From an uncultured Pseudomonadota bacterium (lineage in GTDB: Bacteria; Pseudomonadota; Zetaproteobacteria; Mariprofundales; Mariprofundaceae), in contig CAJXLC010000013.1 in NCBI GenBank assembly GCA_913055645.1, positions 1-48,927 on the forward strand: a stretch of DNA of 48,927 nt, given 5' to 3'. Each line of letters opens with the position of its first letter. Position 1 is the first letter of the stretch. This document shows, piece by piece, positions 869 to 6,489 of the stretch. Below the pieces are notes generated by a model. The model was not told where the DNA came from. It did no database searches and saw nothing but the letters and a program-made list of their open reading frames with translations. The translations under genes and the position numbers were made by a program.

Positions 869-2329
869 TCATAAGCCCAAATCATCCCAAATATTATCCA
901 CCCGTGCTTTAACTTCATTAGACATCTCAATGGGTTTACCCCATTCTCGGTCTGTTTCACCCGCCCATTTATTTGTAGCATCAATACCAACCTTGGAGCC
1001 AAGCCCTGCAATCGGCGAAGCAAAATCCAAATAATCAATCGGGGTATTTTCAGCCATGGTAAAATCACGCACAGGGTCACAACGTGTGGAAATCGCCCAA
1101 ATCACTTCCTTCCAATCTCGACAATCGACATCAGCATCCACCACAATAATGAATTTTGTGTACATAAATTGACGTAAATATGACCAAATACCAAACATCA
1201 CCCTCTTGGCATGACCTGCATAACCCTTATTGATTGAAACCACTGCCATACGATAGGAGCAACCCTCCATCGGCAGGTAAAAATCAACGATTTCAGGGAA
1301 CTGTTTCTTCAAAATCGGAACAAACACTTCATTAAATGCCAAACCCAACACTGCAGGCTCATCAGGCGGTTTCCCTGTATATGTCGAATGATACATTGCA
1401 TCTTCACGCATGGTGATTTTATCAACCGTAAAGACTGGAAACATCTCTGTTTCATTATAATAACCTGTATGATCACCATACGGTCCTTCTTTGGCATATT
1501 CATCCAATGAAACATAACCTTCGAGCACAATTTCCGATGATGCAGGCACTTGCAAAGGAATGCTCAAACAATCAGTTAATATTGTTTTTTTGCCACGCAA
1601 TAAACCCGCAAATTGATATTCAGATAGCGTATCAGGAATTGGGGTTACGGCAGCTAGAATCGTTGCAGGGTCAGCACCAATCACCACAGCACATGGAAAA
1701 CGTGTTGCGCCTGATTTTTTCGCTTCCCGATGATCCTGCGCACCACCACGATGCTTTAACCAACGCATAATAAGTTTGTTCTTCGCAATCTTTTGTTGGC
1801 GATAAATACCCATGTTTTGACGGTCTTTATTGGGGCCTTTAGTCACCACCAAACCCCATGTTAGTAGAGGTGCTACATCTTCTGGCCAACATGTTTGAAT
1901 GGGTAAAGCATCCAAATCCACATCATCGCCTTCCATCACAATGTTTTGGCAATCCGCTTTCTTCACAAGTTTGGGATTCATGTGTATGACTTTTTTCAAA
2001 ATCGGAAACTTATCCCAAGCATCTTTCAGACCCTTGGGTGGCTCAGGCTCTTTTAAGTATGCCAGCAACTCGCCAATCTCACGCAACTCATCGGCAGATT
2101 CCCGCCCCATGCCCAAAGCAATACGATCTGCCGTGCCAAATAAGTTGGTCAATACTGGCATATCGTAACCTTTTACATTTTCAAACAACAATGCAGGCCC
2201 TGCAGCACGCAATACCCGATCAGATATTTCCGTGATTTCTAACTCAGTGCTAACCTCAGTTGAAATACGTTTTAATAAGCCTCGCTTTTCAAGATCTTGC
2301 GTAAATTCACGCAAATCCGCATAACTCAT
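869..2329 (-). CDS. ubiD: UbiD, 3-octaprenyl-4-hydroxybenzoate decarboxylase
   Basis: UbiD decarboxylates 3-polyprenyl-4-hydroxybenzoate in ubiquinone synthesis, using the prenylated FMN made by UbiX. The 486-residue protein is collinear with E. coli UbiD along its whole length: [20 protein letters not shown] near the N-terminus, [11 protein letters not shown] at about 169-179, RWLKHRGGA at 189-197, EIVLEGYV at 266-273 and [12 protein letters not shown] at 281-292. The cofactor-contacting Arg/Asn and the acidic catalytic region are all present. It is the last gene of the minus-strand Mla-like operon; its ATG overlaps the TGA of the STAS gene by 4 bp (ATGA), so translation is probably coupled. 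No ubiX is in the window. Confidence 0.97.
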
Positions 2330-2673
2330 GCCCCTTCCTCAGCATTACCGTCAAAACTGCCCTCAGCAATATCAAAGACACTATCCAATTTTGCTAGCGA
2401 AAACACATCCCTGACCGTGTCTTGTAAGTCATACAGTGCAAAACGTCCACCCGATTGGCGCGCCCATTGCAAACCTTCCACCAATGTTGCAATGCCTGAT
2501 GAATCCATAAATGGCACACCTGACAAGCAAACATGAATTTCTTTGTTTTGATTAACAAATAGAGGCTTTAGCGTATCCCTAAGGCGTGGGGATGTGTGAA
2601 TATTTACAGTTCCTTTCACCGCTACTTTCACCACACCTGCATCATTTGTTTCTACTGCTACATCAAGCTTCAT
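2326..2673 (-). CDS. STAS-domain protein (anti-sigma factor antagonist / MlaB-like)
   Basis: This is a 115-residue single STAS domain. I place the start at the ATG at 2673, because an AGGGAG ribosome site sits 8 bp upstream and because the family begins there; a longer frame would read into the upstream gene. The signature D57-S58-S59-G60 ([13 protein letters not shown]) is the RsbV/SpoIIAA phosphorylation site, so the serine needed for control by a kinase is retained. STAS proteins act as anti-anti-sigma factors, and MlaB-type STAS proteins bind the ATPase of Mla lipid transporters. Here the gene overlaps an RsbW-like ATPase gene upstream by 11 bp and lies downstream of mlaE/F/D homologues, so either or both roles are possible. 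Confidence 0.85.
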
Positions 2674-3160
2674 CACCAACTCCCTTCGTTCCCTGCTTAC
2701 AAATATAAATAAGCGTCCACTGATTACCATCATCCAGTGCAACATGCTCCACAACATCCATAATCGAATGAATCAACTGCATGCCCAATCCGCCTGGCGT
2801 AATATCGGCAGCACTACACGGCGTCGTATCACCACAGTCCCAACCTTGAATATCAACAACCGGAGCATAATCACGAAACATGAAGTGTAATTCCTGCATG
2901 CCATCATCATTGATATGTATTTTGCTTTCAAATTGCACTCTGCCAGGCGTGTCGCCATAGCCATGGTCAGTAATATTGGCAAATAACTCATCCACAGCAA
3001 GTGCCACACGGTTGGTTTCCACATCTGTTAAACCAGCACGCAAGGCAATCACTTCCACCATGGAATGCAGCACATGCACACAATCACGCTGGCAAATAAG
3101 CTCAAACTTAAGCTTGCCAACTTGGCTCTGCTCTAAATCAAGCACTTCAAATTCAACCAT
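2663..3160 (-). CDS. RsbW-like ATP-binding protein (HATPase_c_2, anti-sigma regulatory kinase family)
   Basis: The 165-residue protein has the GHKL ATP-binding fold of anti-sigma serine kinases. The N-box is VDELFANITDHGYG at about 56-69 (Glu58, Asn62) and the G2 box is GGLGMQLIHSIMD at 123-135. The G1 region reads FRDYAPVVD (Asp97); its usual glycine is replaced by alanine, so kinase activity is not certain. RsbW proteins phosphorylate a STAS partner on serine and can sequester a sigma factor. The next gene encodes such a STAS protein with an intact DSSG motif, making the two a likely pair. Its ATG overlaps the stop of the TPR lipoprotein gene (TAATG). No sigma factor or PP2C phosphatase gene is nearby. 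Confidence 0.8.
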   Translation of the reverse strand: MVEFEVLDLEQSQVGKLKFELICQRDCVHVLHSMVEVIALRAGLTDVETNRVALAVDELFANITDHGYGDTPGRVQFESKIHINDDGMQELHFMFRDYAPVVDIQGWDCGDTTPCSAADITPGGLGMQLIHSIMDVVEHVALDDGNQWTLIYICKQGTKGVGDEA

Positions 3161-3999
3161 TACTGACCCAACTTGCTCAACAGCTGCTTGGCTTTCAACT
3201 CGCCTTTTTCATCTTGCAAAATAAAATAAATATCCCTTGCCCGCTCGGCATAATCAAGGCGCTTTTGTATTGATATTTCACCTGCCAACCCTGCCAGTAA
3301 CAACGAGGCATTTGCTGATAACCTTGGTGCCCCCACTTGTTTGCAAAGTTTCAGCACATTGACTGACTGCTTTTTCGCCATCACATCATCGCCTTTTTCT
3401 TTTGCCAACAAAGCCAAGCCCATCGTGGCTTTTGCCTGCAACAACAAACCCGAACGATTTTTTCCTGATGCTTGTATAACCTTCAAATACGACTGCTCTG
3501 CTTGCGCTACATCATGCTGTAAATATGCCAACTTAGCCGCCATCAAATACACATCGGCAGGTAAATTTGCAGATGATGGTTGCATGGCTTCTATAGGCTT
3601 TCCTTGCCTTATCTGCAACAATGTTAACTGTAGTTCAGCTCTATTTTTGTAGGCTGGGAGATGATGCGTTTCCGCCAAATATAACACCTTCTGTAAAGCC
3701 AACTCAGCCTTATTGGTCTGCTTTCCCGCTTTGTAAGCCGTGGCTAAATTGTACCAAGCACTTGTTATCTTCACAGGATCATTGGCAAGTTTTGCCATTT
3801 GTAATGCACGATCAAAAGCATGCTGTGCTGATGCCCAACGCTCCTGATGCATTGCCTCCACACCAACATGTGTGAAATCTTTCATATGCTGCACATAAAT
3901 ATTTTCAACAACAGGCGCACTGGTTTTATGCCCTCCGCCACATGCCACAACAAACACACTGAGCAACATAAAAAGACATAGACGAAAAACACGTATCAT
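3160..3999 (-). CDS. TPR-repeat lipoprotein of the Mla-like operon
   Basis: The 279-residue protein starts with a lipoprotein signal peptide (hydrophobic residues about 5-18, lipobox FVVAC, Cys20), so it should be exported and lipid-anchored. The rest is helical with tetratricopeptide-like repeats, for example VGVEAMHQERWASAQHAFDR and AWYNLATAYKAGKQTNKAEL. It overlaps mlaD upstream by 4 bp (ATGA) and touches the RsbW-like gene downstream, so it is made together with the transporter. TPR lipoproteins commonly scaffold envelope complexes. I infer a periplasmic partner role for the MlaE/D system; the ligand is unknown. It is not a recognisable MlaA or MlaC. Confidence 0.8.
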   Translation of the reverse strand: MIRVFRLCLFMLLSVFVVACGGGHKTSAPVVENIYVQHMKDFTHVGVEAMHQERWASAQHAFDRALQMAKLANDPVKITSAWYNLATAYKAGKQTNKAELALQKVLYLAETHHLPAYKNRAELQLTLLQIRQGKPIEAMQPSSANLPADVYLMAAKLAYLQHDVAQAEQSYLKVIQASGKNRSGLLLQAKATMGLALLAKEKGDDVMAKKQSVNVLKLCKQVGAPRLSANASLLLAGLAGEISIQKRLDYAERARDIYFILQDEKGELKAKQLLSKLGQ

Positions 4000-5009
4000 G
4001 GCTGCATATCCAAAACTGGTGGCGCAGTTTCAAGGCTCTCTTGTGTTGCCTTTTCTGACGTACCACCACCCAATAGCCACGAACGTTGCAAATTTTTCAT
4101 CAATACCTGCATTTCTTTTAATGTTGCCCGCGAATCCCTTGCCAAGCCTGGAAGCTCTGGTGTCATTTCAGATAAATCCGATGCCACAATATTTAGCGCA
4201 GATGACAGTTTATCCACATGTGTAAGCAAGGCATTACTTCGCTCAATAGTCTCAGGCCCATACTTGCTTAGACTTTGTGATAAAGGTTTTATATTTTCGA
4301 GAATGTCCGTAGTCGCAGTCAGCGAATCTGCCAAACGCAAAGCGACCTTCTGCTCATCCAAATCACCTGCAACACTCCCCATTTTCTGCACGGCTTGCGT
4401 AAATGTTTCAATGGCCATTTGTAGGCTTTTGCCATCCACAGGCTCTGTTATTTTGCGTAAATTTGACATCCCTACACGCAAATCACTATCTGGATCATTC
4501 ATCCATGTCGATAACGATGCCAATTCTCGCAACAACACATTGGCATTGTCCACAGCAGGTTGTAAATCCGTTAATATTTGTTCCAATGATGCTTCGGTTT
4601 CATAATTCAAAAGCTCACCACTATTGAGCATAGGCTTGGCAACATCACCTCTAGTCAACTCCACAACCTGCTCACCCAGCAAACCTTCTTTGGTAAGCTG
4701 GATCACCGCGCCTTGATGAACCATATGGTGATAGCGCTCAAGCAAGCGTAACGAAATACGCACCTGTCCCTCATCTTGCAACTCAATTTGATCAATATGT
4801 CCAATAGCAAAACCTTGAAATTTTACAGGCTGCCCTTCATAGAATGAGCTCGCAGAAGGCGGCTCCACAAACAAATAGAATTTTTTGGAAAACACATTAC
4901 TACGCACGCTAACAATCAACACAACCAAAATCAGTGCGCCAATACCTAGCATCACAAACCAACCCACTTGGCGTTTTATGCCCGATACAAAATCTCCAGA
5001 ATCTACCAT
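3996..5009 (-). CDS. mlaD: MlaD-like MCE-domain protein
   Basis: This is a substrate-binding MCE protein of a phospholipid/lipid ABC transporter, 337 residues. It has one N-terminal membrane helix (about 15-36, VGWFVMLGIGALILVVLIVS) and an MCE domain at about 39-118 (FYLFVEPPSASSFYEGQPVKF, VIQLTKEGLLGEQVVEL). A long helical C-terminal region follows that may extend the periplasmic channel. It is longer than E. coli MlaD (183 residues), as is usual for MCE proteins in organisms without the full enterobacterial Mla set. It overlaps the ATPase-like gene by 7 bp and the TPR lipoprotein gene by 4 bp. The symbol is by homology; substrate and direction of transport are unknown. Confidence 0.88.
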   Translation of the reverse strand: MVDSGDFVSGIKRQVGWFVMLGIGALILVVLIVSVRSNVFSKKFYLFVEPPSASSFYEGQPVKFQGFAIGHIDQIELQDEGQVRISLRLLERYHHMVHQGAVIQLTKEGLLGEQVVELTRGDVAKPMLNSGELLNYETEASLEQILTDLQPAVDNANVLLRELASLSTWMNDPDSDLRVGMSNLRKITEPVDGKSLQMAIETFTQAVQKMGSVAGDLDEQKVALRLADSLTATTDILENIKPLSQSLSKYGPETIERSNALLTHVDKLSSALNIVASDLSEMTPELPGLARDSRATLKEMQVLMKNLQRSWLLGGGTSEKATQESLETAPPVLDMQP

Positions 5010-5683
5010 ATACCACTCACATCAGGCACATTAGCGCATTCAATCTCATATGTCCGTGAAAAATTTAATCCCGAACCTTCATGCATGGATGATGTTAAGT
5101 ATAATACTCCAGCCTTCAATTGCTGCATCGCCTCTTTTGCTTTGGCTCGAAATATCTGTAAACGTTCGGGCGGCATACCCACATGAACTTCTTGTGCCAC
5201 AATCACATCTGGACGCTTAAGCAAGCAGTGCCCCAAACTCACCAATGCATGTGTATAAGCAGAGCGTTCACCAGCCTGCTCATAAAGCAACGCTCCCAAA
5301 CCAAGGAACTCGGCAACATCGGCAACTTCACGTTCTGCTCGTTTTAAACGAGATGTATCTTCAGCATACAAAAAAGGCAATAATAAATTTTCCCGTATAC
5401 TTAAATTTGCAAGTAATCCACGTCGCCGAATCATACTACCAACACGGGCACAATACGCTGGTTTACCAGCAACCACACGTTTGCCTGCATACGCTAGCCA
5501 AACCTGTGCATCATCACCTTTACCCAGCACAAATTGCGGAAAAAACCGATCCAAAAACATATACTGCATACTACAATTCATCACAAAGCGTATGTTTTTC
5601 CCTCGGCAGATATAATCTTCAGGCAATTGCCTGTCGCATATCTCCATGGCACGCCAATGCAGTTCATCGCTTACAGGTTCCAT
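5003..5683 (-). CDS. Degenerate ABC ATPase subunit (MlaF position, no Walker A)
   Basis: By position (between mlaE and mlaD) and layout this 226-residue protein is the MlaF subunit, but its ATPase motifs are eroded. Where Walker A (GxxGxGKS/T) is expected, the text reads RFVMNCSMQYMFLDRFF, with no glycine loop or lysine. The Q-loop region survives as RRRGLLANLSIRENLLLPFLY. The signature helix is EQAGERSAYTHALVSLGHCL instead of LSGGQ. Walker B is PDVIVAQEVHVG instead of LLDEPTxGLD. I see no alternative intact ATPase in the window. The ATG at 5683 is chosen; a GTG at 5695 is also possible. The frame is open and overlaps both neighbours, arguing against a dead gene. It may be a pseudo-ATPase adaptor. 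Confidence 0.75.
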   Translation of the reverse strand: MEPVSDELHWRAMEICDRQLPEDYICRGKNIRFVMNCSMQYMFLDRFFPQFVLGKGDDAQVWLAYAGKRVVAGKPAYCARVGSMIRRRGLLANLSIRENLLLPFLYAEDTSRLKRAEREVADVAEFLGLGALLYEQAGERSAYTHALVSLGHCLLKRPDVIVAQEVHVGMPPERLQIFRAKAKEAMQQLKAGVLYLTSSMHEGSGLNFSRTYEIECANVPDVSGIW

Positions 5684-6489
5684 ATTAGCACCCACACTAC
5701 ATCCAAAAATAACATCAATAACAATGCTCCCAAAACGCCATATGTCGCACGGACAGGAATTTGATTCGGATCATTTTCGATCCTGCCACCTTGATCCAAA
5801 AGCATGATACATGACAACATCGGATAAAACATGCCTTTTACAATCATTGCTATCAATTCTTTAAGATCTGTCCCACGCTGCACTTCGAATAAAAATTCAC
5901 TAAAATTCAAGGTGTACGTCCAAGATACTACCAATCCACCAACCCATATAGAAACAACTACAAAAACGAAGGTTAAGACCAACCCGCATAGGGAAAAGGC
6001 TATAATTCTTGGTAGATATAAATACTCATAAGGTGATACACCAAGACTAAGAAGCAACGAATCCTCACCCCTGGATTTCATATGTCCAACCTCAGTCACC
6101 ACAGCAACACCTGAACGCGCCAATAAAAAAATAGCGACTAAAAACGGTGCCATTTCTTGCACCAGCACCCCGTTCATCAAGCTGCCAATCAACGATAAAT
6201 CTTGTATTCTACGGGAAAAGTCCACAATATTATAAACAGCAAGCACGCCAGCACCTAAGGCTATCACAATGACCCAAGGCAAACTCTGAACGCCTGTAAA
6301 GTACACTTGTCGTATCACCACATTTATCACTGCTGGTCGCGATACCCAACGCATACGCAGAAAAACTCGAGCTATCGCCACAAAAAGGCGAAAAAAACGC
6401 TGCAAAACCTGCAAAGCTTGCAGAGAAAACAAGCCAACCCTATCTGCCCGTCTATGCCATTGACCTATATGTGTTCGTAACATGCCCAT
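5671..6489 (-). CDS. mlaE: MlaE-family ABC transporter permease
   Basis: This is the inner-membrane permease of an MCE-type lipid transporter, 272 residues. It shows the family core LVAIFLLARSGVAVVTEVGHMK at about 136-157 and four or five hydrophobic helices (for example about 75-95, 175-205 and 245-270), ending in an MlaE-like GALLLMLFLDVVWVLIW. The family's usual AGRVGAA and E-L-G-x-M features appear as ARSGVAV and EVGHMK. It is the first gene of the minus-strand operon that continues through the degenerate ATPase, MlaD, a TPR lipoprotein, the RsbW/STAS pair and UbiD. Its last 13 bp overlap the ATPase-like gene. A second ATG at 6483 is an alternative start. Confidence 0.88.
   Translation of the reverse strand: MGMLRTHIGQWHRRADRVGLFSLQALQVLQRFFRLFVAIARVFLRMRWVSRPAVINVVIRQVYFTGVQSLPWVIVIALGAGVLAVYNIVDFSRRIQDLSLIGSLMNGVLVQEMAPFLVAIFLLARSGVAVVTEVGHMKSRGEDSLLLSLGVSPYEYLYLPRIIAFSLCGLVLTFVFVVVSIWVGGLVVSWTYTLNFSEFLFEVQRGTDLKELIAMIVKGMFYPMLSCIMLLDQGGRIENDPNQIPVRATYGVLGALLLMLFLDVVWVLIWNL

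Follow-up and report, generated by a model that had tools for sequence, protein, structure and literature searches.

An ABC nucleotide-binding domain lacking catalytic motifs occupies the MlaF position of a conserved MCE gene cassette in Mariprofundaceae

We identified, in iron-oxidizing marine bacteria, a gene cassette in which the MlaF position of an MCE system is held by a protein that has the fold of an ABC nucleotide-binding domain (NBD) and none of its catalytic motifs. The cassette lies in a 48,927-nucleotide stretch of DNA from an uncultured Mariprofundaceae bacterium (contig CAJXLC010000013.1; the whole stretch analyzed, hereafter the window). This 226-amino acid protein, which we call pseudo-MlaF (positions 5003–5683, minus strand), was characterized through an AlphaFold2 model, Foldseek searches, motif losses in 27 homologues, and dN/dS. 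The explanation that we favor, and regard as reasonably probable from the sequence, is that pseudo-MlaF is a pseudo-ATPase in an MCE lipid complex, no longer able to bind or hydrolyze ATP and retained as a scaffold. Since the motifs are lost yet the gene is kept, the transporter is probably a passive or otherwise powered channel, with the old engine as its structural clamp. ABC transporters are defined by ATP-driven NBDs, and a conserved system without an ATP-competent NBD would show that this architecture can be reused for another mode of transport.

The pseudo-mlaF frame is intact and runs on the minus strand from an ATG at 5683 to a TAG stop at 5003–5005. An alternative upstream GTG start at 5695 would give a protein of 230 amino acids. 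The frame overlaps mlaE by 13 nucleotides (mlaE stop, 5671–5673) and mlaD by 7 nucleotides (mlaD ATG at 5009), which agrees with an earlier sequence-only reading of this DNA that described an intact frame overlapping both neighbors. The minus-strand gene order is MlaE-type permease, pseudo-MlaF, MlaD/MCE protein, TPR lipoprotein, RsbW-like kinase, STAS protein, and UbiD-like protein.

The permease, MlaEx (5671–6489, minus strand, 272 amino acids; Pfam accession PF02405, E 3e-38), is divergent and is the weakest of three MlaE matches in the genome (132 versus 282 and 240 bits). The MCE protein, MlaDx (3996–5009, minus strand, 337 amino acids; Pfam accession PF02470, 1.6e-11), contains a transmembrane helix, one MCE domain, and a helical C-terminus of ~170 amino acids. 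In its AlphaFold2 model, the transmembrane helix spans residues 6–39 and the MCE domain spans residues 43–138 (pLDDT ~80), and the helical C-terminal part is of low confidence. The locus thus contains the linked MlaE permease and MCE-domain protein that define an MCE system. The last cassette gene in relatives encodes a 279-amino acid lipoprotein with TPR Pfam matches and a lipobox (VVAC-G) recognized by eye (3160–3999, minus strand). This lipoprotein evolves fastest in the cassette, with identities falling to 47–50% where MlaDx is 63–66% identical.

Downstream of the cassette proper are an RsbW-like serine kinase (HATPase_c_2, Pfam accession PF13581, 5.8e-15; 2663–3160, minus strand), which is a resident of the locus, and a STAS protein with a DSSG motif (Pfam accession PF01740, 5.9e-15; 2326–2757, minus strand, likeliest start 2655). 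The cluster ends with a gene that we take to be UbiD-like (869–2329, minus strand) and that adjoins STAS in relatives with or without the cassette. Relatives lacking MlaEx keep the flanking genes, their locus reading PpiD-(RsbW)-STAS-UbiD or YhdP-RsbW-STAS-UbiD, so gain or loss affects MlaEx–pseudo-MlaF–MlaDx–TPR lipoprotein as a block. These four genes are present or absent together, and some relatives lack the whole unit. We also considered STAS and RsbW as dedicated parts of the system. This assignment is weakened because both persist without the cassette and RsbW is absent in some genomes that have it; the two are thus not cassette-specific. No second stand-alone STAS was found in the genome, where the one other match to STAS is a SulP transporter, and this protein may be a candidate kinase-regulated MlaB of the canonical system, although it scores 16 bits against 90 for the mlaB profile NF033618. 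The STAS protein MlaB of Escherichia coli binds the helical subdomain of MlaF, and it has been suggested that phosphorylation at Thr52 regulates MlaB, although such phosphorylation has yet to be seen in cells (PMC7367683).

Pseudo-MlaF is a much-diverged member of the ABC family. As a single sequence it has no match in a Pfam search and yields only weak ABC ATPase matches over residues 70–207. A 26-member profile matches solved ABC ATPases at E 3e-8, and profile–profile alignment to canonical MlaF covers 183 columns (columns 24–212) at E 4.6e-8. AlphaFold2 produces a confident whole-domain model (pLDDT 84.8, pTM 0.85), for which Foldseek returns ABC NBDs (>1000 PDB matches at E≤1e-3), including Acinetobacter baumannii MlaF in MlaFEDB complex 7d06 (7d06_B, TM 0.62) and the mycobacterial Mce1 NBD (8fed_H, TM 0.64). 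TM-scores of 0.55–0.68 indicate that the model has the ABC NBD fold, much diverged. The ABC homology is not chance: the protein combines a RecA-like core and helical subdomain with detectable ABC ATPase homology. The earlier claim that it is collinear with ABC ATPases therefore holds, and the predicted fold is retained without a P-loop. Pseudo-MlaF ends shortly past the H-loop position and so lacks the MlaF C-terminal extension, which forms a dimer handshake and helps bind MlaB (PMC7367683).

We read the ATP-site motifs by aligning pseudo-MlaF against the canonical MlaF of the same genome. Walker A (GGSGSGKT) is replaced by a shortened MNxxxQ, and the AlphaFold2 model has only two residues (35–36) between strand and helix at the P-loop position. 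The signature LSGGM becomes R-[SPT]-x-[YFV]-[TMV], in which the Arg is invariant (27/27 aligned members) and the second Gly is mostly Tyr or Phe, also Val. Every one of the 27 members has Gln for the Walker B Asp, and the catalytic-Glu position is Glu in 17 and Asp in 10. Across the same alignment, the Q-loop Gln is replaced by Arg, His, or Asn and the H-loop His by Ser, Ala, Thr, Cys, or Asp. The D-loop Asp is also lost. No member contains GxxxxGK[ST], LSGG, or DE[PA], and a hidden or shifted Walker A was found neither in the model nor in the 27-member alignment. The sequence-only reading had named the same losses: no GxxGxGK[ST] (0/27 members), ERSAYTHAL in place of LSGGQ (residues 139–147), and VIVAQEVHVG as Walker B (residues 160–169). 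Each is present as described, and no Walker A occurs elsewhere in the protein. Pseudo-MlaF thus lacks the set of features that marks a functional ABC ATPase (Walker A; signature; Walker B Asp with the following Glu; Q-loop Gln/H-loop His). These substitutions argue against ATP use by the subunit, which would be unable to act as a normal ATPase. In and around the former ATP site, the polar residues R32, Q40, R140, and Q164 are invariant, and H145 and H167 are near-invariant.

Several observations indicate that pseudo-mlaF is under selection, as had been proposed from its intact frame. Pairwise dN/dS between close pairs is 0.06–0.15 for pseudo-MlaF, similar to its neighbors (0.03–0.12 for MlaEx and 0.05–0.17 for MlaDx). 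The aligned proteins contain no nonsense mutations, so relatives are not randomly broken by stops, and fixed residues persist across sequences that are just 37–45% identical. The dN/dS values and the conservation in relatives rule out a pseudogene. Of the 23 invariant positions, 9 fall within residues 86–106 (hypergeometric p 3e-5). ABC permeases insert their coupling helix into the NBD around the Q-loop and the stretch that follows it. Conservation has thus moved away from the ATP site and into the segment predicted to hold this helix.

Of 299 genomes sampled across the phylum, 34 carry pseudo-MlaF; they all belong to one order, 33 to one family and one (G061) to another. Named matches come from Mariprofundaceae and other Zetaproteobacteria, including the isolate Mariprofundus micogutta ET2. 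Pseudo-MlaF occurs solely with the MlaEx type of permease, which is present in 32 of the 34 genomes; the remaining two have the gene at the end of a contig. No sampled Mariprofundaceae genome has MlaEx without pseudo-MlaF, and matches to MlaEx from beyond the order are much weaker (best E about 1e-18 to 1e-22). The genome also contains two canonical mlaFED loci in which MlaE and MlaD genes stand alongside an intact MlaF, so the search for a second canonical mlaF returned two genes with intact motifs. One of these loci consists of mlaFEDC and, after it, a long gene with a YhdP-like counterpart in Mariprofundus (Pfam accession PF13116). Several Mariprofundus genomes carry the cassette immediately downstream of canonical mlaFEDC-yhdP and in the same orientation. 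No further NBD gene was found inside the cassette in the relatives examined.

In related cassettes these motifs have been lost to differing degrees, which looks like stepwise erosion. In one genome from another class (G065), the four genes stand in the same order and the ATPase has lost only the signature, which reads MSELQ; Walker A, Walker B, and H-loop are intact. The order also occurs in 9 of 48 genomes of a sister class (loci L213 and L270–L277). In all nine, the ATPase retains Walker A and the Walker B Asp, but the signature, the Q-loop Gln, and the H-loop His are gone and the catalytic Glu is replaced by Asn or His. With Walker A in place, this NBD is predicted to bind ATP without hydrolyzing it. 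In G061, which belongs to the window's order and a different family, Walker A and signature are lost and Walker B reads EEP. An MlaE tree, to which a long-branch warning applies, places these three groups apart from canonical MlaE at 100/99 support. A common origin of the series is likely and is backed by the shared gene order, which is independent of this tree; the sister-class cassette is probably homologous to that of the window. Delta-proteobacterial and other loci that we considered (L144–L149, L150, and L152) encode ordinary ABC ATPases with motifs intact.

The cassette combines features of several known systems. It resembles MlaFEDB of E. coli and A. baumannii in its linked permease, NBD, and MCE genes, its MlaE and MlaD Pfam families, and its NBD fold. 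It differs from MlaFEDB in that the NBD lacks catalytic motifs and the C-terminal handshake, the MlaD protein is long and has a helical C-terminus, and a TPR lipoprotein stands in place of MlaC. Similarities to mycobacterial Mce1/Mce4 include the long MCE protein (MlaDx matches TIGR00996 at 63 bits, below cut-off) and the NBD fold, whereas MceG, which is important for stability of those complexes, is an active, unlinked ATPase and the cassette NBD is linked but dead. PqiABC and LetAB (YebST) are likewise MCE lipid systems without a known ATPase, and Pqi has an outer-membrane lipoprotein partner; PqiA and LetA, however, are not ABC permeases and have no NBD-like subunit. ABC exporters with a degenerate site (TM287/288, TAP, CFTR, and SUR) have also lost catalytic residues, but in one NBD, and they keep ATP binding and one working site in the heterodimer. 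Pseudo-MlaF has lost Walker A as well as the signature that the inactive NBD of such heterodimers keeps, and the cassette encodes no active partner.

We infer how the MlaEx system would work, from the role of pseudo-MlaF as a scaffold and its docking surface to the lipid cargo and the source of energy. Pseudo-MlaF would dock under MlaEx through the segment past the former Q-loop (SMIRRRGLLANLSxRENLLLPFLY) and, once docked, would hold or gate the permease dimer as a cytoplasmic clamp. The periplasmic path would be formed by an MlaDx MCE hexamer with its long helical C-terminus, together with the TPR lipoprotein. Lipid would move without ATP hydrolysis by pseudo-MlaF, either following its gradient or drawing on the proton motive force, membrane biosynthesis, or a partner machine. 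PqiA offers a precedent for an ATPase-free MCE system: it would act passively, rely on an ATPase yet to be identified, or draw on the proton motive force (PMC10897342). Mce1 and Mce4 depend on the NBD subunit MceG for their stability, and MceG Walker B mutants destabilize both in Mycobacterium (PMC9947336). ATP chemistry therefore matters for assembly in Mycobacterium, which counts against the scaffold explanation; the MlaEx system must have been freed from that requirement.

We give roughly even credence to a broader proposition, namely that this is a complete ABC-type MCE transporter whose NBDs are both pseudo-enzymes, an ABC transporter thus turned into an ATP-independent lipid conduit, and that sister lineages preserve intermediates of the change. 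The signature would have gone first, followed by the catalytic Glu, Q-loop, and H-loop while Walker A stayed (an ATP-binding switch), and finally all motifs. These graded losses offer natural intermediates for testing. Permease–NBD coupling can be examined in this system without ATP chemistry, and the system thus bears on the direction and energy source of MCE lipid transport. In a search of open-licence literature, we found no report of a dead NBD in an MCE system.

The sequence-only reading had held that a system of this kind would need another ATPase or a different energy source. A canonical MlaF from elsewhere in the genome might power the MlaEx complex, replacing pseudo-MlaF or pairing with it. 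The presence of two canonical mlaF genes, the position of the cassette behind mlaFEDC-yhdP in several Mariprofundus genomes, and the precedent of one ATPase shared by MCE systems (unlinked MceG in Mycobacterium; PMC9947336) are consistent with this explanation, the main rival, which we nonetheless consider unlikely. In a hybrid dimer the inactive partner must supply the signature, and pseudo-MlaF has lost both signature and D-loop Asp, so pairing with canonical MlaF is an unlikely rescue. Simple replacement would leave no reason for the coupling patch of pseudo-MlaF to be its best-conserved part, and MlaEx is just 24–26% identical to the canonical MlaE proteins of the genome. Transport without ATP hydrolysis of its own is at least as likely as the use of another ATPase.

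It is also conceivable, if quite unlikely, that the former NBD acts as a sensor, with its site binding a ligand other than ATP or with STAS and RsbW regulating MlaEx through it. A new ligand at the former ATP site is possible since the catalytic-Glu position is still Glu or Asp in 27/27 members and the four polar residues are invariant, and the two near-invariant histidines fit the same idea. Regulation through STAS and RsbW would agree with the STAS and usually RsbW-like genes directly downstream and with the MlaB–MlaF interaction and proposed Thr52 phosphoregulation in E. coli (PMC7367683), but it sits poorly with the independence of both genes from the cassette and with the missing C-terminal extension that helps bind MlaB. 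The lack of the cassette in several family members could suggest a non-functional relic in the course of being lost. This is very improbable given dN/dS of 0.06–0.15 over many independent pairs, intact overlapping frames, and residues fixed at 37–45% identity. An assembly or binning artifact is hardly credible: the window comes from a 56-contig draft assembly, but the same locus occurs in M. micogutta ET2, Mariprofundus sp. KV, and the single-contig genomes G018 and G048. The scaffold explanation therefore remains the one that we favor.

We also searched for a second ATPase next to the cassette. An unrelated intact ABC ATPase gene lies upstream on the same strand only in the closely related genomes G060 and G235 (L108 7899–8669 and L226 6253–6927), and this arrangement is not conserved. 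At L103 (4376–14558), and likewise at L104, L115, L220–L222, and L227, mlaFEDC, the YhdP-like gene, and the cassette form one co-oriented run. The rsbW and STAS genes (2326–3160, minus strand, in the window) end such a run, mlaFEDC-yhdP-[cassette]-rsbW-STAS-ubiD, in several Mariprofundus genomes. These co-oriented runs link two lipid-transport routes and a bridge protein.
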